Below, one piece after another: positions 39,168-53,060 of a stretch of DNA of 64,000 nt. Every line of letters begins with the position of its first letter. The stretch's first letter is position 1. The position numbers were made by a program, and so were the translations under genes. The notes under the pieces are model-generated. The model saw nothing but the letters and a program-made list of their open reading frames with translations, was not told the origin of the DNA and ran no database searches. The DNA is taken from NCBI RefSeq assembly GCF_000970285.1, contig NZ_CP009516.1, forward strand, positions 3,823,036 through 3,887,035, in the 5' to 3' direction. This stretch comes from Methanosarcina horonobensis HB-1 = JCM 15518 (lineage in GTDB: Archaea; Halobacteriota; Methanosarcinia; Methanosarcinales; Methanosarcinaceae).

Positions 39168-41744
39168 TTGCACTCAAAAAGTTCAGAGAACTTGGTTCGC
39201 TGTTTCCGGGAGGTGTTAAATATTCAAAAGAAAAAAGTCAAGTCTGAATTCTGTTTCTGTTCGACTATTCCATCCAACGGCCTTACTGCAGTTTATAAGG
39301 AGCCGGAAGAAAGGACGGAACTTATAGTAGATTATATTAAAGCAGGCCTGCAACAAAACGAGCGCTGCATCTGGCTTGTCCCGGATTCTGAGAGTGCAGA
39401 GTCAGCAAAAGATTTGCTTTCAAACTCAGAGCTGGATATCGAAAGCTGTATAGAAAAATCCAGACTTAAGATAATTTCCCTGCAGGAAACAGAAATCCTT
39501 TCTGTCAAACAGCCAGAGACTTCAGGGATATATTTTGATTGGAATGCAGGAAACCCGCAGAAAGAGATTATAAAGTTCATTCACGCAGGAAACTGGCGAT
39601 ACCTGCGCATTAATCTTGAGGTCGGAAACTTTGGTAAGTCAATTACAGATTCCCTAAAGGAACTAAGGCGCATCTTTGCTGAGAATATACCTGAAAAGAA
39701 GATCAGACCACTCTTTATGATTAGAGAGGAAGATCTTTCCCCGGATGAAGTTTTCTACCTTATAGAAGCCGGGGAGAAACTGATAATTAGAAGAGACGGA
39801 AGATGGAAGTCTCTTAGAGTAAAGCAAGAAAACCCGGACAAAAAATTCAAGACATTACTTGAGAGTTCAAGTGACTCTATACTTATACATGATATGAAAG
39901 GAAGGGTTCTGGAAGCAAACCACGTGGCCTGTGAAATCTTCGGATATACGCGCAGTAAAATGCTCGGGAAGCACATTAAAGATTTACGGACTAATATCCA
40001 CCTTACCGAGTTCGGACAGCAGATAGAGAAGCTGAAGCAAACAGGATACTTCATTTTCGAAATGGACTCACTGCGGAGAGACGGCACGGTTGTTCCTCAA
40101 GAGATCAATAACAGGTTAATTGAATACGATGGAGAAACAGCCGTACTATCCATAGGGAGAGATATAAGTGAAAGGAGAAAGAATGAAGAGGCACTGAGGG
40201 CTTCGGAAAGAAAATACAGGACACTTTTTGAGGAGTTTCCCGGAGGAATTGCCCAGTTCGATACCGAGGGGGTTATTACTCTCTGCAATGAGAGCTTTGT
40301 AAACCTCTCCGGAAGCCGTGAAAAGGAAAAAATTAGCTTTAGTTTACTGAACCTCCTAGAAGGAAAAAATCCCAAAAAGAGTATTACATGCCTCCCCGAA
40401 GTTCCTGTTCATTATGATCTGAAGTATATCTTCAGTGAAAAAAATGGGAGAACCCCTGTTGCTATAACATACAAGCCTCTAATATCCGAAAATTTCGAAC
40501 TTGTCGGAGGCATTGTGCTTGTAGAGGATCTGACTGAAGTAAAGAGGTTAGAGACCGTAAGGCTTCAGCAGACGGAGTCTCTTAGAAAGCTGGTGGATTC
40601 AATACCTGTGCCTGCATTTTGTAAAGACAGAAACGGAATATATATTGCCTGCAATAAGGGTTTTGAAACTCTTGTAAGAATGAAAAAAGAAGAAATTCTC
40701 GGAAAGTCTATTCATAACTTCATCTCTCCTAAAATTGCTGAAAAGCACCATGCAATGGATATAGAACTGGTAAAACATAAAAGAACTCAGGTCTATGAAG
40801 CATCTTTGAAATTTGCTGATGGTTTAGTACATCAGGTAATGTTCAGTAAGTTCGTGTTCAGTGGAGTAAATGAAGAAGACTCTGTGCTCCTCGGCATTAT
40901 GATCGACATAACAGAACGCAAGCAGGCTGAAGAAAAAATGCTTCAGGCAAAAATGGCGGCTGAAACCGCAAACAGAGCGAAAACCACATTCATTGTCAAT
41001 ATGAGCCATGAATTGAGGACTCCCCTGAATGCTGTTATAGGGTTTTCGGACCTTCTATTGAGCGAGACTTTCGGGCCTCTTAACGAAAAGCAAAAGAGGT
41101 ACGCTGAAAACATTTCAAAAAGCGGAAACCATCTTTTAGATGTCATCAATGATGTACTGGATATCTCAAGGCTTGAACTGGGAAATATTGAGTTATATTA
41201 CGAAACAGTGGATATACCCGCAGTAATTGAAGAAGTACAGAGAGTTCTTTCCTCTCTCTCAGCGGGAAAAAATATCCGTATAGAATACAAGGTTGAGAAG
41301 GGTCTGAAAACTATAATCGTGGACAAGGTAAAGTTCAAACAGATTCTTTATAACCTTCTGAATAATGCAATTAAATTCTCATCCGAAGGCGGGAAAGTAA
41401 ACATCTCTGCAGAGCTTAAGGAAGATATAGTTGAGATCAGTGTAAAAGATGAGGGTATCGGCATCAATGAAGCTGATTACGAAAGAGTTTTCCATCCATT
41501 CGTGCAGATTGATGAGTCCATATCCAGAAAACATGGAGGCGTGGGGCTTGGGCTTGCACTCGTCAAAAGGTTTGTCGAACTTCACGGAGGAAAGGTATGG
41601 GTTAAAGCCAGCCCGGGAAAAGGCAGTACATTCACCTTTAGAATTCCAAAAAGGCCTGAAAGCCAGGTACAGGAAAATATTAGCTCTGTACAAACCTCTT
41701 ATGATCTTGAAATTGAGAGGGAAAAAGAAAAAATAGAAAAATAA
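39168..41744 (+). CDS. MEDS-PAS-PAS-PAS sensor histidine kinase
   Basis: 858 aa, with no membrane helix, so cytoplasmic. Domains: MEDS sensory domain (about 25-205, FCFCSTIPSNGLTAVYKEPEE and YIKAGLQQNERCIWLVPD), three PAS domains (about 225-335, 345-460, 470-585), a HisKA dimerisation domain with phospho-acceptor His in NMSHELRTPLNAVIGFSDLL (about 613), and HATPase_c with LYNLLNNAIKFSSEGG, DEGIGI and GGVGLGLAL. MEDS domains are thought to sense methanogenesis- or methylotrophy-related ligands. There is no receiver domain and no response regulator next door, so its partner is elsewhere. The start is uncertain: TTG at 39168 gives the full MEDS domain. Confidence 0.9.
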   Translation: MHSKSSENLVRCFREVLNIQKKKVKSEFCFCSTIPSNGLTAVYKEPEERTELIVDYIKAGLQQNERCIWLVPDSESAESAKDLLSNSELDIESCIEKSRLKIISLQETEILSVKQPETSGIYFDWNAGNPQKEIIKFIHAGNWRYLRINLEVGNFGKSITDSLKELRRIFAENIPEKKIRPLFMIREEDLSPDEVFYLIEAGEKLIIRRDGRWKSLRVKQENPDKKFKTLLESSSDSILIHDMKGRVLEANHVACEIFGYTRSKMLGKHIKDLRTNIHLTEFGQQIEKLKQTGYFIFEMDSLRRDGTVVPQEINNRLIEYDGETAVLSIGRDISERRKNEEALRASERKYRTLFEEFPGGIAQFDTEGVITLCNESFVNLSGSREKEKISFSLLNLLEGKNPKKSITCLPEVPVHYDLKYIFSEKNGRTPVAITYKPLISENFELVGGIVLVEDLTEVKRLETVRLQQTESLRKLVDSIPVPAFCKDRNGIYIACNKGFETLVRMKKEEILGKSIHNFISPKIAEKHHAMDIELVKHKRTQVYEASLKFADGLVHQVMFSKFVFSGVNEEDSVLLGIMIDITERKQAEEKMLQAKMAAETANRAKTTFIVNMSHELRTPLNAVIGFSDLLLSETFGPLNEKQKRYAENISKSGNHLLDVINDVLDISRLELGNIELYYETVDIPAVIEEVQRVLSSLSAGKNIRIEYKVEKGLKTIIVDKVKFKQILYNLLNNAIKFSSEGGKVNISAELKEDIVEISVKDEGIGINEADYERVFHPFVQIDESISRKHGGVGLGLALVKRFVELHGGKVWVKASPGKGSTFTFRIPKRPESQVQENISSVQTSYDLEIEREKEKIEK

Positions 41745-42102: not shown

Positions 42103-42915
42103 TTAATGCTCTTCCATTACTCCCTTTTGATCTGTCAGCAATCCTTTTTGATCCTTTTCTTCAATTACCCTGACAAAATGCCTGTCTGATAAATCCTCTT
42201 TCCCGGACCAGAAAATTGCTTTATGGTATTTCCATACATCAGGGTCAAACTCAAGGATGCCCACGTGGACTATGAGTTCAAAGACAAACCAATAGGCTGC
42301 AAACAGGTGTACTAAACGGATCAACCCCAGAGCATCAACGTTAAACAAAGACGCAACATACCAGGCTGCAGAGAGAATCCATTCGGATATGGGAAGCCCT
42401 AAAGGAGCCCAGGCAATGTTGTAAAGCACAACTCCTGTTATGGCAATGAGAGCAATTGCAGTACTTTCGAAAATAATCAGCAGCTTGAGCATAGGATGAA
42501 GTTTCGTAACATAATGCCCTTCCTGCTCATCATAGATCGTAAATGCGGGGTACTTTCCTTTGCCGAAAAAGTTCCTGACAATACCAGACAGGCGTTCAGC
42601 ATCGTCCTCCCCAAAAACATAGGACTCTTTGAAATGTTTTACTCTATTTCTGACGCACCATCTCTCACCTTTGCAGGAAAAGATATTATAGGGAACAAGA
42701 ATCCAGTTTGCGACCAGGAAAAAAGGAACTGCAATCATGTGGAAAGCCCGAGCTGTTTGAAAAGACATGAAGTCCCAGCCAAAGTAGATCTTGAACCCTG
42801 TGATAAGAAGGGTAAACATGGCAACCAGATGAACCAGGTGAGTAACCCTCTCAAGCCAGGTATACCGTTCGACAATTATCCTCCTGGAAGCAGGTTTCTC
42901 AGCAGATCGTACCAT
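42103..42915 (-). CDS. vhxC: Cytochrome b subunit of the Vhx hydrogenase-like complex
   Basis: 270 aa membrane cytochrome b of the NiFe-hydrogenase HyaC/VhtC family, which passes electrons to methanophenazine. Four to five membrane segments. Candidate heme-b ligands are conserved with VhtC: HLVHLVAM (about 26-33), RAFHMIAVP (about 56-64) and [31 protein letters not shown] (about 197-227). AAAGGAGA lies 8 bases before the ATG at 42915, and the gap to vhxA is only 11 bases. It has kept all its residues although the small subunit of the operon is altered, so the operon has not simply rotted away. The tail after SGKEDLSD differs from VhtC. Confidence 0.88.
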   Translation of the reverse strand: MVRSAEKPASRRIIVERYTWLERVTHLVHLVAMFTLLITGFKIYFGWDFMSFQTARAFHMIAVPFFLVANWILVPYNIFSCKGERWCVRNRVKHFKESYVFGEDDAERLSGIVRNFFGKGKYPAFTIYDEQEGHYVTKLHPMLKLLIIFESTAIALIAITGVVLYNIAWAPLGLPISEWILSAAWYVASLFNVDALGLIRLVHLFAAYWFVFELIVHVGILEFDPDVWKYHKAIFWSGKEDLSDRHFVRVIEEKDQKGLLTDQKGVMEEH

Positions 42916-42926
42916 ATAGGTCTCCT

Positions 42927-44717
42927 TTAGAGTATTTTTATAGTAGAATTGGAATGCTTTCCAGTTTTGTCAATTGTATGAACCGCACATGCAAAACAGG
43001 GATCATAAGAACGGGCTGTATGCAGGATTCCGAGAGGATTCGAATAATCTACTCCAAGAGCATTTTCCGCAGCTGAAATCTTGGTGCCTATAAGAGCCTG
43101 CTCAACAGGGCTCGGAATTCCCTGTGAATTTCTGGGACCAAGGTTCCAGGTACTCGGAACTACAGCCTGATACAGGGTTACCATGGAATCCGAGCCTGTA
43201 GTAATCCAGTGCCCCAATGCTCCGCGCGGAGCTTCCCATAAACCCATTCCTTCGGAGTTCTTTGCCATGGAAAGATCGGTATGTACTGCAACCCTTGCAT
43301 CAGGCTCCAGATCCTGCGAAATCCATTTCAACAGTTCAGGCATAACTACCAGGATTTCCTGCATCCTTGCAATCATGCGAGTATAGTTGTTTAAAGGAAA
43401 ATAACCATTTTCTTCAAAAATTCTCACCAATCCGGTAACAAGAGGTTCTCCCATAATCAGGAGGCGAGCAAGAGGCCCAACTTCACAGGGAATGCCACCA
43501 TAATGAGGAGCCTTTGACCAGGAGTAACGACTTTCCGAACCTCTGGTGTAATCGATTTCATCAGGGTTGTCTTCAGGAACAGTAATTCCGTTCCATGGAG
43601 GCCGGTCTCTTTCTTCGTCAATATAAAGTGCATGAGCAGTGCTTTCCGAAATTTTCCTGTAATCGAATTTTTCAAGTTCCAGATGCCCATTCATATAACC
43701 CGAAGGAATTACTCTACTATCTGCAGGACTTGTAGGATCATATCCCTCCCCTTTTTCAGGCTTGAAGAAAAGCCCGTAGGAAAGAAAACCGATCTTATCA
43801 GGATCAGTGTAAACTCCTGCGTGTTCCATTTTCATACTGATAGGCAAGCCGAGAAGTTTTTCTCCGATTAATTCCGAACCAAAAGCCGCGAAAAGAGGGA
43901 CATCTCCCCAGCCTGAAGAGTGTGAAAAATCATTGTTAGAAAGAGAGTTATCCAGAAGTTCCTGCAGGCGTTCGAGGACAAAATTGACAGCTTTTTGAGG
44001 AGAAGAAGCTCTGTAAGTGTTTTCTATCCATGTCCCGGGAGAGACTCCGAGAGTAGATGTTTCAACGAACTTAGCAGTTTCTGAAACGTACGCTTCAAGC
44101 TTCTGAATATCTCCAAAATTGGGAGAGTAAACTACTCCTCCGACATGCTGCAGAACAGAATGAGGCATTTTGCCGGCTATAAGCGAAATACCCACGTGAA
44201 GGCGGCGAAGCTCCCTTATAGCACCAAGATAAGAAGAGCCGGCAGGATAGGTTGTACCATTGTATTGATTCACCAGAGGCGCAAAACGTCCAACTAATTC
44301 GCCCCATACTGCATTTCCCACATCTCCGTATTGTGTAAGGATATCACGATAAGCCGGGTTTGCAAGATCTGGACCCCACAGCACGTAAATATGGACTGCA
44401 TGGCTGGCTATCAAATTCATTCCCTGGTGAATATTTCGCATAACAAGGGCGTCTTTGGGAACCTGATCCGCAACCCCGAAAAGATCGTCCAGAGCATTTG
44501 CTGCAGCTATACTGTGACAAACCGGACAAACACCACATATTCTCATAGTCATAAGTGCCGCATCCCTGGGGTCATGTTTTTGAAGAAGCCTTTCAAAACC
44601 TCTAAAAACCAGGCCGCTGCTCTGTGCATCAGTAATTACACCATCAGCATCGACTTCAGTATTGACTCTGTAATGCCCTTCAATTCTAGAAAGAGGATCT
44701 ACGGTCACCTGTACCAT
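42927..44717 (-). CDS. vhxA: Vhx NiFe-hydrogenase-like large subunit
   Basis: 596 aa paralog of VhtA. The NiFe-binding motifs L1 RICGVCPVCHS (about 59-69) and L2 SYDPCFACAVHT (near the C-terminus) are both complete, so a NiFe(CN)2CO site could be built. A 16-residue tail after the final His would be removed by a VhtD-type protease. No D gene follows vhxC, so VhtD would have to serve both. The ATG overlaps the vhxG stop by one base (TAATG). Differences from VhtA: CPVCHS for CPISHS, and overall clear divergence. Confidence 0.88.
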   Translation of the reverse strand: MVQVTVDPLSRIEGHYRVNTEVDADGVITDAQSSGLVFRGFERLLQKHDPRDAALMTMRICGVCPVCHSIAAANALDDLFGVADQVPKDALVMRNIHQGMNLIASHAVHIYVLWGPDLANPAYRDILTQYGDVGNAVWGELVGRFAPLVNQYNGTTYPAGSSYLGAIRELRRLHVGISLIAGKMPHSVLQHVGGVVYSPNFGDIQKLEAYVSETAKFVETSTLGVSPGTWIENTYRASSPQKAVNFVLERLQELLDNSLSNNDFSHSSGWGDVPLFAAFGSELIGEKLLGLPISMKMEHAGVYTDPDKIGFLSYGLFFKPEKGEGYDPTSPADSRVIPSGYMNGHLELEKFDYRKISESTAHALYIDEERDRPPWNGITVPEDNPDEIDYTRGSESRYSWSKAPHYGGIPCEVGPLARLLIMGEPLVTGLVRIFEENGYFPLNNYTRMIARMQEILVVMPELLKWISQDLEPDARVAVHTDLSMAKNSEGMGLWEAPRGALGHWITTGSDSMVTLYQAVVPSTWNLGPRNSQGIPSPVEQALIGTKISAAENALGVDYSNPLGILHTARSYDPCFACAVHTIDKTGKHSNSTIKIL

Positions 44718-45928
44718 TATTTTTCACCTCCGATTTCCTCGGAAGTACTTTCTTCAGCAGTGCCTTCCTTTTCTTCAGGCTTTTTCAAAACAGTCCTCCG
44801 GAGAGCGTGAGCACCAGCAGCAAGGAGTGCTCCTCCTATTGCTACGCCTGCTATAGTATCCAAATTTGTACCGACAATTCCGGTATCTTCAATCTCGACA
44901 TAAAAAGGCCTGGTACTATCCGGAAAACCGGGCTGTACACAGCCAATACATGGAGAACCTGCCTGAGGACAGAAGTTGAGATGACCATTCCAGTGGCGAA
45001 GAGCGCAGTCAGCATGGGAATAAGGCCCCTTGCACCCTAATTTCCAGAGACACTTCGGTCCGCCTACTGTCGTATCAAACTCTCCGCGATCATAGTATCC
45101 ACGGCGAGGACAGTTATCATGGACAACATGGTCAGGGGGATAGAAAACCTTCGGACGGTTCCATTTATCCAGCACTTCAGGTAAATCTTCAGGTACCTTG
45201 ATTTTTCCAGTGGCGATCGCTCCTATGGTTAGAAACACCCAGTCAGGATGGGCTGGGCAGCCGTTAATATTAATAACCGGTGTGTCGATCCCAAGCAGGT
45301 CTATAATTCCTTTTGACGAGTCTTCCAGAGTAAAGGCAATCCCACGATGGTCCATAAGCTCAGCAACATCACTCTTAGCAGCATTCACTCCACTATGGGT
45401 CGCACACTGCCCGATTGCAACGATTACTGAGGCATTTCTCGCAGCTTTCTCATAAACCTCCTTATAGGGCCTTCCACCCAGCATCAGGTATTTCCCGGAG
45501 CCATGAGGCCCGTTCGCGACTGCTCCTTCAGAGATAAGGATGTAGCCCCTTTCATTTTCAAGAATCTCGTCCAGTAGGATTTCGGAGTTCAGCTCACTGG
45601 TATTTGCAGGTTTTCCGTCCACGAAAATTCCCTGCTGCATCATTAAAACTTCCTGATAGAGCAATTTGAGGTTATAAAGCTGAAGTAACTCTATGAGATC
45701 AGGTGATTCTCCGTCCAGCATTGATATGGTACAGCCGCTATCCATTACCCCGTGAAGCCATACTATTTTGGTTTCCGGTAGCTCACTAAGGGCTTTTATC
45801 ATATCACTTTTATATGTTTGTAAGAATAACGAAGCTCCCAGTATCCCGACAGCTTTTATAAAGGTTCGACGATCCATCGTCATGAAATCGAGGTTTTTAA
45901 ACTTTTCAAGTAAACACTCTTTACTCAT
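44717..45928 (-). CDS. vhxG: Vhx hydrogenase-like small subunit lacking a proximal-cluster cysteine
   Basis: 403 aa with a twin-arginine signal (DRRTFIKAVGILGASLFL), so exported folded, and a C-terminal membrane anchor (GVAIGGALLAAGAHAL). The normal ECTGC motif of the proximal [4Fe-4S] cluster reads MDSGC here (residues 62-66): the proton-relay Glu is Met and the first Cys is Asp. The other proximal ligands (IGQCATHSG, NGCPAHPDW) and all distal and medial ligands (HDNCPRRGYY, KCLWKLGCKGP, CPQAGSPCIGC) remain. It resembles VhtG over its whole length. With three Cys and one Asp it might hold a modified cluster, but ordinary H2 oxidation is doubtful. M. barkeri VhxG is, to my memory, similarly unusual. 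Confidence 0.88.
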   Translation of the reverse strand: MSKECLLEKFKNLDFMTMDRRTFIKAVGILGASLFLQTYKSDMIKALSELPETKIVWLHGVMDSGCTISMLDGESPDLIELLQLYNLKLLYQEVLMMQQGIFVDGKPANTSELNSEILLDEILENERGYILISEGAVANGPHGSGKYLMLGGRPYKEVYEKAARNASVIVAIGQCATHSGVNAAKSDVAELMDHRGIAFTLEDSSKGIIDLLGIDTPVININGCPAHPDWVFLTIGAIATGKIKVPEDLPEVLDKWNRPKVFYPPDHVVHDNCPRRGYYDRGEFDTTVGGPKCLWKLGCKGPYSHADCALRHWNGHLNFCPQAGSPCIGCVQPGFPDSTRPFYVEIEDTGIVGTNLDTIAGVAIGGALLAAGAHALRRTVLKKPEEKEGTAEESTSEEIGGEK

Positions 45929-46245
45929 CCTACTCTCCCCAACAATAAGAAATAATTTATTAAATAGAGATATAATAAGACATAGACCCTATTATATTAA
46001 AAGACTATCACGGTTCAGAACAAAATCATCGGTGTTATAGCTGATTCTTATAACAAATATTTTCTACATTATTTAGATAGTCTAGTTACATTTAAAATAA
46101 ATATAGTTTTTCTAAAGATTTATATATTTTAATAACCAGCTTATATATTGAAATTTTAAGTTTAGTATTTGCAGCATAGTACGAAAAAACAGCACGCGCT
46201 GCATAGTACAAGAAATAGAATTATGAAGAATGTGGGGGATAGAGT
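45929..46245. promoter_or_regulatory. Divergent promoter region, vhxG / peptidoglycan-binding-fold gene
   Basis: 317 bases, strongly AT-rich. TATA-like TTTATATATTTT at 46119-46130 and TTATATATTG at 46141 face right. A direct repeat GCATAGTACGAAAAA (46174-46188) and GCATAGTACAAGAAA (46201-46215), 27 bases apart, lies between these and the ATG at 46246. Toward vhxG, GGGGAGAGTAGG just before its ATG is the ribosome binding site. Confidence 0.5.
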
Positions 46246-47235
46246 ATGACTATAGGGGATGGTCACGATTTAAAATCATCGAGATTTTCAGGCGATGAGG
46301 TTTTAGAGGCTTGTTATGATAATGAAAGGGCTCTTCGTAGCGGCGACAGAGACCCCGCAGTAGAGAAAGTTCAGGAAGCTCTGATAATTTTAGGTTTTCC
46401 TGTGCCCAAAGTCGGAATCACCGGTATCTTTGGCGATGAAACTGAGTTAGCTGTCAGAAGTTACCAGGAAGCACGTGGATTGAAGGTTGATGGGATAATA
46501 GGGCCGGAAACTATAGAAAGTCTGGACTCAGAGTTCCCGAGAATAGTATCAGAACCTTCCGTTTCACCAACAACGGAACCACCGGTCTCTAAGGTTCCAA
46601 CTCCATTAACACCGGAATCTCCGGTTAGGTCACCCAGGGCATCTGCGGTCAGATTGGCAGGGGAAACTCCGGAGCCGGTAAGAGCACCTCATGCCCCATC
46701 AGTAGAAGAGCTCTCAGTCCCACCAGTGGAGGAAGCTCCGGATGTTGAACCGGTACATGCGCCTGCGGTAAAGCCAGTACATGCACCGCCTGTCCCACCG
46801 GTAAGGGAAGTTTCGGCTAGACCAGAACATACAATGAGGCATGTAGAAACAAAACCGCCTTCAACTGCACCTTCAACTGCACCTTCAACTCCACCCGTGA
46901 CTCCAGAAATCCCTGAGACTGACAGCCAGGGCCGCAAGTTCCATTCCTCCGGCATGTGGAATGTGGACAGTTTTCTTGAAATCAAGGGTGGTCGATCAAT
47001 GCACTTTGAGGTGAAAAACCTCGGTGTCCTTGCATCACCTCTCAGGATAAAAGCCAATACCGGAGAATCCCGAGATGCTATGATTCTATCTCAAACCATT
47101 GCAGATTTCGAATTCTCTATGGTCGGCAAAGAGCCGTTTAACTGGAGATTTGATATCGAAACAGATAGCGATACGGCTTTACTTGAGTGGTATCTCTACA
47201 GTACCTGGGTGCCGGGAGAACCAGAGAAACCTTGA
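46246..47235 (+). CDS. Peptidoglycan-binding-fold (PG_binding_1) protein with Pro-rich linker
   Basis: 329 aa, no signal peptide. Residues ~25-95 match the PG_binding_1 fold: LRSGDRDPAVEKVQEALIIL, GIFGDETELAVRSYQE and GLKVDGIIGPETIESL. A ~130-residue Pro/Val/Ala/Thr linker follows, with repeats such as HAPAVKPVHAPPVPPV and STAPSTAPSTPP. The C-terminal ~95 residues form an unknown, probably beta-sandwich domain (MWNVDSFLEIKGGRSMHFEV to WYLYSTWVPGE). Methanosarcina has no peptidoglycan, so the fold must bind something else. It sits rightward between two leftward hydrogenase operons. Confidence 0.82.
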   Translation: MTIGDGHDLKSSRFSGDEVLEACYDNERALRSGDRDPAVEKVQEALIILGFPVPKVGITGIFGDETELAVRSYQEARGLKVDGIIGPETIESLDSEFPRIVSEPSVSPTTEPPVSKVPTPLTPESPVRSPRASAVRLAGETPEPVRAPHAPSVEELSVPPVEEAPDVEPVHAPAVKPVHAPPVPPVREVSARPEHTMRHVETKPPSTAPSTAPSTPPVTPEIPETDSQGRKFHSSGMWNVDSFLEIKGGRSMHFEVKNLGVLASPLRIKANTGESRDAMILSQTIADFEFSMVGKEPFNWRFDIETDSDTALLEWYLYSTWVPGEPEKP

Positions 47236-47377: not shown

Positions 47378-47863
47378 TTAAAGAGTATGGGAAAACTCTT
47401 CCCTGATGAGCCTTATAGCTTCATCTACAGCCTCGAGGACTTCAGGGTTAATATCCGTAGAGATTTCTGTAGCTACCTCTCCAATCTCTATTCCTATTAC
47501 CACAACTTCCGGAAGGGACTGAATCTGCTCTCCGATTCTCAAAACATCAGTAATTGTGAGATCGTGTACCGAGACCAGTGTATGAGGCTCAGTACCCTCC
47601 AGAAGGTCTTTGCCTTCGATCCGGTGTACCGAACCTGTCCGGCTGCCTGTCAGAACCGCATCGACAATTATTACTTTTCTGGCGCCGTCAAGCAGATTAA
47701 GGAGATCCAGCCCGCAGACTCCTGCATCTGCTATATCAAGCCCTTCGAGCCCTTCAAGATCTGTTTTTTTAAGAGCTTCGATGATCCTGATACCTATGCC
47801 GTCATCGCCCATAAGCGGACTTCCGCAGCCCAGAATTCTGACAGGAGCATGTAGTATAGACAT
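47378..47863 (-). CDS. vhtD: Hydrogenase maturation protease VhtD
   Basis: HycI/HyaD-type endopeptidase that removes the C-terminal tail of the large subunit once Ni is inserted. 161 aa. Nickel-contact motifs: GCGSPLMGDDGIGIR (about 12-26, first Asp), VIIVDAVLTG (about 63-72, second Asp) and LVSVHDLTITDVL (His, about 97). It is the last gene of vhtGACD, about 110 bases after vhtC. It is the only such protease in the window and must also serve VhxA if that is matured. Confidence 0.92.
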   Translation of the reverse strand: MSILHAPVRILGCGSPLMGDDGIGIRIIEALKKTDLEGLEGLDIADAGVCGLDLLNLLDGARKVIIVDAVLTGSRTGSVHRIEGKDLLEGTEPHTLVSVHDLTITDVLRIGEQIQSLPEVVVIGIEIGEVATEISTDINPEVLEAVDEAIRLIREEFSHTL

Positions 47864-47974
47864 ATTCTCACTTCATGAAATTGAACATATGTAATTCTTT
47901 TCTGGCAGCTCTATGTCTATACCACATTTTTTCTGTGCCCGAATATATTTCCTGATAATGGAATTCCCGGAATG

Positions 47975-48787
47975 TTAGTCCTTTACAACTTCCGAAGGCG
48001 TATCTGACGAATCGTGCCAGAGCTCCCTATCAGGAAGGTGCTTCGGGTTGGGCTTAACAATTTCTACGTAGTGGGAATCCGAAAGGTCTTCTTTCCCGGA
48101 CCAGAAGATAGCCTTGTAGTACTTCCAGACATGCGGATCAAACTCAAGAATACCCACGTGAACAACCAGTTCAAAGACAAACCAGTATGTCAGCAGCAGG
48201 TGGGAAAGCCTGAGAAGCTGCAGGGAACTCATTCCGAATGAAGGTGCAATCAGGTCTCCAGCTGAAAGAATCCATGATGCCAGGGGGAGGCCGAAAAGCG
48301 ACCAGTCAAGCTTGTAGAGAACGACTCCAGAAACCGCAATTAAGAAGATAGCTGTACCCTCGAGTACGATAAGGATCTTCATTATGGGGTGGAGTTTGGT
48401 CTTGTAGTGTCCCGAAACTTCATCATAGATGGTGAATGCTGGATACTCTCCCTTTCCGAAGAAATTGAGAATTATTGCCTTCATGCGCTTTGCATCTTCA
48501 GGACCGAAAACATAATGGTCCATGAAATGTGCCAGTTTTTCCATAACTCCACCTTCACTTGCAGAGAAGATGTTGTACGGAATAAGGATCCAGTTCACTG
48601 CAAGTAAAGCAGGAACCATGATCATGTGAAGGGCGCGGGCAGTATGGAAACTCATAAAGTCCCAGCCTGCGTAGATTTTTAACCCGGTAATGATGAGCAC
48701 CAGCATCGCCACAGCATGGATGGTGTGGGCCGTCCTGTCAAGGACGGTATAGCGCTCAACAACCATCGGGTTATCTTTGGATTTCAT
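47975..48787 (-). CDS. vhtC: Cytochrome b subunit of methanophenazine-reducing hydrogenase
   Basis: 270 aa, five or so membrane helices. It takes electrons from the VhtG Fe-S chain and reduces methanophenazine on the membrane, coupling to proton translocation. Histidines in [10 protein letters not shown] (about 17-26), RALHMIMVP and [19 protein letters not shown] fit heme-b ligation, and [28 protein letters not shown] is the family end. The ATG at 48787 follows AGGAGATG closely. Third gene of vhtGACD. Confidence 0.94.
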
Positions 48788-48810
48788 CGTGGGTCATCTC
48801 CTATACTTTC

Positions 48811-50598
48811 TTAGAGTATTCTTATAGTATTTGGAGCGTTTTTCCCGGTAAGGTCAATGGTGTGGACTGCGCATGAGATGCATGGGTCATAGGATCTGCC
48901 TATATGGAAGATACCGGTAGGATTTGCATAATCGACACCAAGAGAGTTTTCTACGGCATTAATTTTTGACCCTATAAGGGACTGTTCGAGCGGACCAGGA
49001 ATGCCTTTGCTGTCTCTTGGGGACATTAACCAGCTACCCGGAACAATTGCTTGATAGTTTGAAACCTTTCCATTGCTACCAGCAGAGACCCAGTGCCCGA
49101 GAGAGCCACGCGGAGCTTCCCACAGGCCCATTCCCTGATTATCTTTAGCTTTATTAAGGTCTATAGGCACAGAAATCTTGCCGGTGGGGTTATAGTCAAC
49201 TGTTACCCACTGGAGAAGCTGGTGTGCAAGGATAGTGGTTTCCTGTATGCGGGCCATCATTCTTGTGAAGACGTTAGCTGCAGAGTAGCCTTTAGCATTG
49301 AAAGCCTGAGCAAGTCCGGTTACAAGAGGTTCTTTCATTACAAGCAGGCGTGAGAGAGGTCCGACTTCGGCAGGAAGTCCATCGTATCTTGGAGCCTTGT
49401 CCCAGGTATACCTGCTCTCTGAACCACCAGTGTAAGAGATTTTCTCAGGGTCGGTAAACGGAATGGTCTCTCCCTTTGAGGGGTGAAGATCGCCTTTGCT
49501 GTCATCGTAGAAGGAGTGAGCAACACTTTCAGTAATCTTGTCAGAATCAAATTCCTTGCGCTCAAGGTTGCCGGTCACGACACCTGATGTCTGGAATCTG
49601 GCTCCTGCAGGACTCTTCGGGTCGTATCCGTCATCTTCGACATTGTAGAACCCACCATATGCAAGGAAGGATATCTTTGAGGGGTCGCTGTATCCGCCAA
49701 TTTTGTCGTGTTTCAGGCTTGCAGGAAGACCAAGGAGGGTTTCTCCTACAAGTTCAGAACCGAAAGCTGCATATAATTCCACATCTCCCCAGCCCGCTTC
49801 TCTTGAGAAGTCGTTGGAAGTTGTTGATTTATCAATAAGGCCCTGGAGATGTTCGGTTACAAAGCTTACAGCTTTGTCGGGAGAGCTTGCCTTGTATGTG
49901 TTTTCAATCCATGTATCAAAAGGAACTTGCAGAGTATACTTTGATACAAAGTCCATTACCTGGAGATAGTAGGAGGAAAGTTTAACGATATCTGCAGCTG
50001 TTGGCTTGTAGGTATATCCACCAGGGTAGGGTGTTACCGGGCCCGGCATTCTGCCTGCAATAAGTGCAATGGCTTCCTGAAGGCGCTTCTTTTCAGGAAT
50101 TGCTGCCATGTAAGAAGTTCCTGCAGATATGGCTGCTCCGTCAATCTTGTAGCTTATAGGGGCAAACCTTCCAACCAGCTCTTTCCAGACTGCATTTCCT
50201 GTGTCTCCGAGAGTCCCAAGGACATCTCTGTATGCAGGGTTTGCAAGGTCAGGGCCCCAGAGCACATAGATGTGGGTTGCATGACTTGCAATGGTGTTTA
50301 AACTCTGGAAAATGTTCCGCATAACCAGGGCATCTTTTGGAACATATTCAGCTACACCGTAGAGATTGTCAAGGGCATTTGTGGCTGCCAGGGAGTGAGA
50401 AATCGGACAGACACCGCAGATTCTCTGGACAAGAAGAGCTGCATCCCTGGGATCCTGTTTCTGCAGGATGCGTTCAAATCCACGGAATATCGTACAGGAA
50501 CTCTGAGCATCCGTGATGACACCGTTGGCATCCACTTCCGTGGAAACACGAAGGTGACCTTCAATTCTGGTTAAGGGGTCTACTGTAACATTTACCAT
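48811..50598 (-). CDS. vhtA: Methanophenazine-reducing [NiFe] hydrogenase large subunit
   Basis: 595 aa catalytic subunit holding the NiFe(CN)2CO centre, on the outer face of the membrane. It has L1 [11 protein letters not shown] (about 58-68) and L2 [12 protein letters not shown] near the C-terminus, with a short tail ([16 protein letters not shown]) cut off by VhtD. It travels with the Tat-exported VhtG, having no signal of its own. The gene starts 8 bases after vhtG. Confidence 0.96.
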
Positions 50599-50605
50599 TT
50601 TTCAC

Positions 50606-51757
50606 TCACTCTCCTTTCATTCTTCTAACAGCATGTACCCCTGCAACTACAGTAGCTGCACCGACTGCAGCTTTGGATAATGTGTCAATATTTGCCCCAA
50701 GAAGCACGCCTTTGTCTTCGGCTTCAACATAAAGGGGTCTTGATGAATCAGGGAATCCAGGTTCCACACAGGCTATACAGGGACCGCCTGCCTGGGTACA
50801 CATGCTTACGGAACCGTTCCATCTGCGAATTCCACAGTCAGCATGGGAATAAGGAGCTTTACAGCCTAATTTCCACAGGCACTTTTCCCCGCCAACCTGC
50901 TCGTCAAATTCTGCACGGTCATAGTATCCGCGGCGAGGACAGTTTTCATGTACAGTGTGATCCGGAGGGAAGAAAACCTTTGGTCTGCCATAATCATCCA
51001 GAACGGCAGGAAGGTCACCAGGCACCTTGATCTTTTCAAGGATTACCGCACCCAGGGTAAGGAGAATCCAGTCAGGGTGAGCAGGACAGCCAGGGATGTT
51101 GATTACAGGTTTATCGATGCCGAGCTCCTGAAGCATGCCTTTTGTTTTATCATTCTTTGCGAAGGCCACTCCTCTGTAATCTGTGTCCTTGGCAATATCA
51201 CTGTCTGCAGAAGTAATTCCTCCGTATGCGGCACAGGTTCCGACTGCAATGACGGCAGTGGCATTCTTTGCAGCTTCTCCGAGGATCTCCTTAAAGGTCT
51301 TGTTCCCGATCATGAGATACTTACCTGAACCCTGGGGACCGTTTGGAATTGAGCCTTCAACAACCAGAATATAATTACCTTCTTCAATAAGCTCTTCAAG
51401 AAGGATCTCGGAGTTGAGTTCGGCATTGTTTGCAAGTTTTCCATCTACGAATATTCCCTGCTGAGCAAGAAGAGTCTCGTGATAAGCAAGGTTAACATTG
51501 AGTTTGCTCAAAGCCTGCGCAACATCAGGGTTGCCTCCGTTTAAAAGAGATTCTGAACATCCGGTGCATTCGGACCCGTGGAGCCAGACAATCTTTGTCT
51601 CTGCAAATTCAAGCGCGCTTACAATTTCTGTTTTATAGGTGCCAAGAAACGCTGTTGCACCAAGCACGCCTACAGCCTTCATGAAAGTACGCCGGTCTAG
51701 TTTTAAGAAATCTAAACTATCCAGTGTACGGGCAAGGTTTTTCATTCCAGTACTCAT
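50606..51757 (-). CDS. vhtG: Methanophenazine-reducing [NiFe] hydrogenase small subunit
   Basis: 383 aa Fe-S subunit that wires VhtA to cytochrome b. Twin-arginine signal DRRTFMKAVGVLGATAFLGT (about 21-40). Proximal cluster ligands are complete: GSECTGCSES (E63, C64, C67), VGTCAAYGG, PGCPAHPDW. Distal and medial ligands: HENCPRRGYY, KCLWKLGCKAPYSHADC, CTQAGGPCIAC. A C-terminal hydrophobic anchor ends MKGE. The frame extends to a TTG at 51784, but the ATG at 51757, preceded by GTGGTAGAG, gives the usual MSTGMKNL start. First gene of vhtGACD. Confidence 0.95.
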   Translation of the reverse strand: MSTGMKNLARTLDSLDFLKLDRRTFMKAVGVLGATAFLGTYKTEIVSALEFAETKIVWLHGSECTGCSESLLNGGNPDVAQALSKLNVNLAYHETLLAQQGIFVDGKLANNAELNSEILLEELIEEGNYILVVEGSIPNGPQGSGKYLMIGNKTFKEILGEAAKNATAVIAVGTCAAYGGITSADSDIAKDTDYRGVAFAKNDKTKGMLQELGIDKPVINIPGCPAHPDWILLTLGAVILEKIKVPGDLPAVLDDYGRPKVFFPPDHTVHENCPRRGYYDRAEFDEQVGGEKCLWKLGCKAPYSHADCGIRRWNGSVSMCTQAGGPCIACVEPGFPDSSRPLYVEAEDKGVLLGANIDTLSKAAVGAATVVAGVHAVRRMKGE

Positions 51758-53060
51758 CTCTACCACATCTTGTTTTTTACCCAAATTATATATCCGAAAG
51801 AAAATTTTAATTTAATTTCCACTGCAATTATATAAATGTGTATATAAATATACCGATAATGTTTTCAATGAGGGAATAGTATTTAAGGTTTTTTACACAA
51901 TAGAATAAATATATTAATGCGGTAGATGGAATTTATTTAATATAGATAAAAATATAAAATATAAGATAAATTAATCTTGCGTCTTAATACAGACAATAAA
52001 CCTGTAAAAGGCGATTTAACAGGATCAGTTAACCATACAGATCGAAAGAAATAGTCTACACATAAAAGAAATTTATTTCCTGAAGTAAACGATTTGCAGT
52101 ATGCAGATATGGATTACAGTGCGGTTAAAAGTATCATAGAAGTCATCATAAGCACAATATAGAGATTCAAAATTATCAACCCTCAAAGAATTACATGCCT
52201 TATTTACCATGTTCTTCTTAAGTACCACTTATTTTTGTTAACCTGCATATTAATAATGTATGAACTCGTAAGTATATCCTTGATTTATCTATACCTTAAG
52301 CCGAGCATGCAGATCGATTAATATTTGGCCTCAGGTAAACCCACATATATCGCCTTGACCAGCGACTTTTGTGCAATTACTCTTATTCTGATTACTGTCG
52401 ATCCTATTGCCTGCAGAAAAGTTGGTAAAACTCATTTAATATAGAAAATATTAACAAAGTTGCCTGAAATTTTAGTTATTTAATAAAAATCTTTGACTAA
52501 AATAGCCCTTAAGTAGTCAGAACAGATTTTTATTACTCTATAAAAAGCATTTCACGAGCTGGTTCTAAATAAAAAAACAGGTAAAAGTTTTGGAAGCAAA
52601 ATTAAAAAACAAAAAAGATATAAGAAAGCTATACAATTGAGCAAAAATAATATTCACTATTATATTCGCTATAAAATACCCACTTGTATACTTACTTTTA
52701 TGAATTTTCAGAGATTAATTTCTGGTGTTCAGGGATTTAGTTTCTGGAATATTCTACATACCATACTAACCCTTGATTATTAACTGCTCTTTCCTAACCA
52801 GGAGACAGAATAGATAGGGAAATAGAGTTACCCTGGAGAGAGTAGTTTTTCTAAGGTTGCTAACCTTACAACGTATACCCTATACTTACAATGCGTATCC
52901 TGTAGAATTATTTTTTAAAAGAACAATCAAATAGTCCAGAACGTTAATCCTCCAAATATTAATTCAGATATCAGTTTAAATATCAATTCGAGTATCAATT
53001 ACAAACAAGTATCGTTCGAATCTTAAAACAAAAGCAGGAAAGAAAAACAATAGAGGTAAT
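51758..53060. promoter_or_regulatory. 1.3-kb divergent control region between vhtGACD and hypCDABE
   Basis: No gene is seen in 1.3 kb. TATA-like TTTATATA words (minus strand, 51829-51855) lie about 75-100 bases before the vhtG start and probably drive it. The right end has four 12-bp repeats before hypC. The middle is AT-rich with no clear ORF; long leaders before hydrogenase genes or an unseen small RNA are possible. Confidence 0.55.
52955..53002 (+). repeat. Four tandem 12-bp units upstream of hypC
   Basis: AATATTAATTCA, GATATCAGTTTA, AATATCAATTCG, AGTATCAATTAC in direct succession, consensus NATATCAATTNN, ending 58 bases before the hypC ATG. About one DNA turn apart each, they present one face of the helix to a binding protein, so an operator or activator array is a reasonable reading. 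Confidence 0.75.

Follow-up and report, generated by a model that had tools for sequence, protein, structure and literature searches.

An aspartate at a proximal-cluster ligand position of the Methanosarcina hydrogenase VhxG is conserved under selection and probably belongs to a working enzyme

The vhxGAC operon of Methanosarcina horonobensis HB-1 raises the question of whether a hydrogenase whose small subunit lacks a cysteine of the proximal iron-sulfur cluster is a working enzyme or a dying duplicate. We analyzed the operon within a 64,000-nucleotide stretch of the 5.02-Mb chromosome, referred to here as the window. Three minus-strand genes make up the operon: vhxG (44717–45928), an ORF with an ATG start that encodes a [NiFe]-hydrogenase small subunit of 403 amino acids with matches to the Pfam families NiFe_hyd_SSU_C and Oxidored_q6; vhxA (42927–44717), which encodes the large subunit; and vhxC (42103–42915), which encodes the cytochrome b subunit. 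The operon adjoins hyp genes and vhtGACD (47378–51784), also on the minus strand, in which vhtG-vhtA-vhtC (47975–51784, with vhtG at 50606–51784) encode the canonical paralogous hydrogenase used here for comparison, and vhtD (47378–47863) encodes a hydrogenase maturation protease. No maturation protease gene follows vhxC within the vhx operon; vhtD lies approximately 1.5 kb upstream of vhxG. Between vhtD and vhxG is a divergent ORF (46246–47235, plus strand) for a protein that combines a peptidoglycan-binding domain with a Pro-rich linker, and the vhx operon converges at its end with a MEDS-PAS histidine kinase gene (39168–41744, plus strand).

The motif GVMDSGC, described in an earlier sequence-only reading of this DNA, was confirmed in the vhxG ORF. 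VhxG reads W-L-H-G-V-M62-D63-S64-G-C66 where VhtG from the same window reads W-L-H-G-S-E-C-T-G-C. The codons ATG GAT AGC (45737–45745, minus strand) encode Met62-Asp63-Ser64, which in phmmer alignments with group-1 small subunits (E. coli Hyd-1 and D. gigas 1frv) fall on Glu16-Cys17-Thr18 in D. gigas numbering; the best PDB match of VhxG was E. coli Hyd-1. We take Cys17 to be the first of the four proximal-cluster cysteines, which places Asp63 at that ligand position. The other three are retained as Cys66 (group-1 Cys20, 45731–45733; Cys in 18/18 proteins with the Met-Asp-Ser motif, here called MDS forms), Cys175 (group-1 Cys112, 45404–45406) and Cys224 (group-1 Cys148, 45257–45259), all on the minus strand, so that VhxG has three Cys and one Asp in place of a four-Cys proximal [4Fe-4S] site. 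Medial and distal cluster ligands are of the group-1 type, and a Tat signal (MDRRTFIK) is present. VhxG scored 161.4 bits against the NCBIfam model hydA (TIGR00391), under the cut-off of 179.5, whereas VhtG passed with 202.7. An AlphaFold model built from 19 related sequences had a mean pLDDT of 48, too low for interpretation. The earlier description of two substitutions, Glu to Met and Cys to Asp, holds for those two residues but overlooked a third, Thr to Ser, so that three adjacent residues have changed. Both Glu and Thr of the small subunit are proposed proton relays. The claim that VhxG has lost the proton-gate glutamate has to be set aside: mutagenesis placed the gate residue on the large subunit (D. 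gigas Glu18 and D. fructosovorans Glu25; PMC3325256), and VhxA retains it within the motif RIEGH, together with RICGVC, DPCxxCxxH and a C-terminal extension for protease processing.

The distribution of the motif in the Vhx proteins of other strains, a check proposed in the same reading, was determined with a degenerate DNA pattern for WLHG[V/A/G]MDSGC in 31 Methanosarcina genomes and 155 other genomes of the order. The pattern matched 18 of the 31 and 0 of the 155. One of the 18 (G003) has an FrhG 100% identical to PDB chain 6qii, presumably M. barkeri FrhG, and we take this genome to be M. barkeri. VhxG itself was present in 23/31 Methanosarcina genomes at 79–100% identity (one copy fragmentary) and a sister form in four; vhx was not found in the remaining four of the sample (G016, G017, G019 and G024). 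The ancestral Cys is retained by five VhxG, as VECTGC in four (G001, G020, G025 and G027) and AGCTGC in one (G009), and by the four sister proteins, termed 'y', as GGECTGC (G007, G010, G022 and G023). These M. acetivorans-type VhxG (the ECT form) and 'y' proteins share with the MDS forms, in most cases, a locus beside vht, but they retain the ancestral residues in a canonical GVECTGC or GGECTGC, and their hosts mostly have Rnf, not Ech. Each of the three adjacent residues is nearly universal in 42 relatives (Glu in 41, Cys in 40 and Thr in all 42) but is replaced, by Met, Asp and Ser respectively, in 18/18 MDS forms, and synonymous changes have accumulated at the codons: Asp is encoded by GAT in 14 and GAC in four, and Ser by AGY in 11 and TCN in seven, with neither amino acid ever changed. 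The replacement is not a product of chance.

The start of vhxG was examined by orthologue comparison. In the window the start codon is ATG (45926–45928, minus strand), preceded by 6 nt by the Shine-Dalgarno-like sequence GGGGAG (45935–45940), which is GGGGGA in most relatives. Among the 23 orthologues (L044–L064, L069 and the window), the corresponding codon is ACG in 18, where it sits 6 nt after the GGGGGA-like sequence, ATG in four including the window, and GTG in one. A Thr codon at this position is always ACG, never ACA, ACC or ACT, although ACG makes up 11% of the Thr codons in these genes. Two genomes (G004 and G028) carry an in-frame TGA six codons upstream of the ACG, and lack any NTG between that TGA and the Tat-motif ATG; G021 has a single NTG in that interval, an ATG two codons before the Tat-motif ATG. 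Variation from the ACG to the Tat motif is mostly synonymous. Taken together, these observations make ACG very likely the vhxG start in most species. The M. barkeri genome and four others also contain an ATG that overlaps the Shine-Dalgarno sequence (ATGGGGGGAAGT or similar). Annotation of the start at this ATG would have left reporter constructs without the true ribosome-binding site. This bears on the report that the M. barkeri vhxG promoter and ribosome-binding site, described as not discernible, were silent in a reporter (PMC11409679); the ACG start may explain the silence of vhx or, by way of start annotation, may have led to its being mis-explained. A transcriptome study found regulated vhx transcripts under acetate stress (PMC6913021).

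Selection on the operon was estimated as omega (dN/dS) with maximum-likelihood codon models in IQ-TREE, separately for MDS genomes, ECT genomes and vht. For vhxG, vhxA and vhxC, omega was 0.104, 0.121 and 0.175 in MDS genomes and 0.131, 0.123 and 0.178 in ECT genomes; the MDS values are below those of vhtG, vhtA and vhtC (0.157, 0.144 and 0.201). Pairwise values between the window and its nearest homologue were 0.069, 0.082 and 0.15. In the 18 MDS VhxG, the other three proximal Cys and the medial and distal ligands, including the distal His, are invariant. VhxA of the same genomes keeps the N-terminal CxxC of the NiFe site in 18/18 and the C-terminal DPCxxCxxH pair in 17/17 proteins that extend to the C-terminus; the gate Glu is kept in every genome, and VhxA also retains the C-terminal tail that the protease removes. 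The conserved His of VhxC are intact in the window and in MDS genomes except for one Arg. These data bear out the view that the remaining Fe-S ligands, the Tat signal, VhxA and VhxC are kept and that a complete but altered complex is preserved by selection, which apart from the replaced site retains all that a Tat-exported [NiFe] enzyme coupled to cytochrome b requires. In M. barkeri (L060) the tail of VhxA that is cut off by the maturation protease contains an in-frame duplication, TIDKTTIDKT.

A potential concern is that Vhx is inactive and drifting, a duplicate on its way to loss. The literature on M. barkeri, in which vhx is held to be incapable of forming an active hydrogenase (PMC6030560), leans this way, as do the weak ACG start in most species, the four genomes in which vhx was not found, a truncated vhxC in G002, and a broken vhxA with a vhxG deletion in G027, an ECT-type fragmentary MAG that is 60% complete. 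We looked among relatives for the frameshifts or relaxed selection by which the sequence-only reading would have recognized a dying duplicate, and found few lesions and an omega at or below that of vht. Eighteen species carry the same motif, with its codons altered synonymously, and the Shine-Dalgarno sequence and an upstream AT-rich block are conserved. We consider drift highly improbable; decay of the duplicate was rejected on omega and conservation. Since the MDS motif is genus-wide and strongly selected, the Vhx protein does something, and it is probably, judged from sequence, a working variant expressed at a low level.

The suggestion that Asp could ligate an Fe-S cluster has a structural precedent by analogy in FrhG of M. 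marburgensis, whose density clearly shows three Cys and Asp60 binding the proximal cluster (PMC3591093, PMC3930138). In the alignment Asp60 falls on the D of GCTGD, where a CxxC would have its second Cys (the Cys20 position). Both proteins would have a proximal site of three Cys and one Asp, predicted in the case of VhxG, and both lack Glu before the first ligand; they differ in that the Asp is the second CxxC ligand in FrhG (CTGD) and the first in VhxG (DSGC), a mirror arrangement, and in that FrhG is cytoplasmic, FAD/F420-linked and equipped with a ferredoxin-type C-terminal domain. The M. horonobensis genome also encodes an FrhG (L097, G000:C1:2967827-2968522) with GCTGD, with Asp at a proximal ligand like Asp60; this pattern occurs in no other of the 31 Methanosarcina genomes, and FrhG of M. 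barkeri is canonical at this site, with GCTGC. Changes at the first ligand were seen as well in VhtG of two draft genomes in which vhx was not detected (G016, L030/L071; G019, L032/L072), where Cys is replaced by Ser at the same position. The Ser codons of this pair are TCC and AGC, each one base from TGC, which makes two independent changes likely. We know of no other group-1 enzyme with a native proximal cluster of three Cys and one Asp.

From the precedent of Asp60, and from the absence of the Glu in FrhG, we infer that a hydrogenase with a cluster of three Cys and one Asp and an altered potential is the most likely form of Vhx. VhxGAC is a genus-wide paralogue of Vht, kept by selection with a re-engineered site beside the active center; according to this model, Asp63 would supply the fourth ligand of the proximal [4Fe-4S] cluster in place of Cys. 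The cluster would have a shifted potential, a greater lability or both, and the enzyme would operate without the small-subunit Glu relay. Vhx would transfer electrons as a hydrogenase on the methanophenazine branch. With Vht/Vho it shares the gene order G-A-C, the Tat signal, the NiFe ligands, the medial and distal clusters, a cytochrome b subunit, and 57–62% identity in the small subunit. It differs from them in the Met-Asp-Ser replacement, in having no maturation protease of its own, in the ACG start of most species and in the lack of a reported activity. Maturation could be provided by VhtD and Hyp, and translation of vhxG would be weak where the start is ACG (it is ATG in M. horonobensis). 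The role would probably be minor or conditional in H2 metabolism and hidden under laboratory growth. In its general form, a functional group-1-type membrane hydrogenase made at a low level with its proximal cluster on three Cys and one Asp, we judge this reading to have about an even chance of being correct. A more specific version, in which all three residues switched together to give the cluster (perhaps through a 2-base frameshift that was compensated), translation is held low by the conserved ACG, and the reporter silence is in part an artefact of start annotation, is put forward only tentatively.

Alternatively, Vhx might be non-catalytic or weakly catalytic, the MDS motif breaking the link between NiFe site and electron chain, and be kept for H2 binding or sensing, as an assembly partner of Vht, or for cytochrome b anchoring. 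Strains with only fre and vhx are cited second-hand in PMC13224831 as having no hydrogenase activity, and strong constraint is combined here with no known phenotype. It is also the case that the proximal ligand changed together with two residues that lie on proposed small-subunit proton routes. However, the NiFe ligands, the three remaining proximal ligands, those of the medial and distal clusters, the gate Glu and the protease tail are all invariant, which is more than a scaffold needs. The Tat motif and the cytochrome b subunit also do not suit a regulatory hydrogenase, a type marked by a cytoplasmic location; the match of VhxC to Pfam Ni_hydr_CYTB was weak and under the cut-off. The earlier suggestion of a sensor is unlikely given the Tat signal and the cytochrome b subunit, and those of slow, reversed or oxygen-tolerant catalysis are conjectural. 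We regard a non-catalytic Vhx as rather unlikely. Nor do we find it probable that the site serves protection, with a labile Asp position allowing [3Fe-4S]/[4Fe-4S] interconversion in an oxygen- or redox-protected stress enzyme, which would resemble the [4Fe-3S] cluster of O2-tolerant hydrogenases in purpose though built differently; in favor of this reading are the Asp ligands found in labile or sensing clusters such as that of B. subtilis Fnr (Gruner et al. 2011, as quoted in PMC3591093). E. coli Hyd-1 and R. eutropha MBH do resemble VhxG in having an altered proximal cluster site in an enzyme of the membrane-bound uptake type, but they have gained two Cys ([4Fe-3S], ECTCC) where VhxG has lost one; VhxG has no extra Cys of this kind, and its host is a strict anaerobe.

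The preferred reading of a working hydrogenase is compatible with more than one history of the motif. On the vhxG and vhxGAC trees the MDS forms are mixed in with the ECT forms, implying two or three changes; the Ser codon is AGY in one clade and the window and TCN in another clade; and the vhxC trees show recombination. These data raise the possibility, to which we give somewhat less than an even chance, that the MDS form had two or three separate origins or was spread through gene conversion of short tracts. Against this, a single MDS clade was not rejected by the AU test for vhxGAC (p = 0.26), vhxG (p = 0.105) or vhxA (p = 0.09) and was rejected only for vhxC (p = 0.0013); a single ECT clade was likewise not rejected. 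A single origin followed by reversion, repeated origins (two or three), or short gene conversion may each account for the history. An economical route would lead from GTA GAA TGT ACT GGT TGC, by removal of GA, insertion of AG before the T of ACT and one substitution, to GTA ATG GAC AGT GGT TGC. The vhxC genes of G004 (L051) and G028 (L064) are near-identical although their vhxG and vhxA are far apart, indicating recombination inside the operon. Candidate compensatory changes that track the motif in VhxA, VhxC and VhxG were rejected: Gly at VhxA residue 35 and Ala in VhxG (position 131 of the trimmed alignment) are shared with the 'y' forms and look ancestral.

We also considered the energy-conserving background of the hosts. 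RnfC was above cut-off in eight genomes, most of which lack EchE-like genes, and 16 of the 17 well-covered MDS genomes are Rnf-negative and Ech-positive (Fisher p = 0.0001 for Rnf and 0.001 for Ech). Because the rpoB tree provides no more than two independent contrasts, a tie between the MDS form and Ech-bearing, Rnf-lacking genomes is not separable from shared descent, and it was set aside. The window genome is an exception among MDS-type genomes, having RnfC, lacking the 362-amino-acid EchE-like protein and carrying the MDS form.

Genetic work on M. barkeri has so far dismissed Vhx as incapable of forming an active hydrogenase. If initiation at the conserved ACG is real, it would give the archaea a rare example of a non-AUG start maintained throughout a genus, and published reporter results would need re-testing. 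The 18 Asp and nine Cys forms make up a natural set for testing how H2 catalysis is tuned by the proximal ligand and by the Glu of the small subunit.
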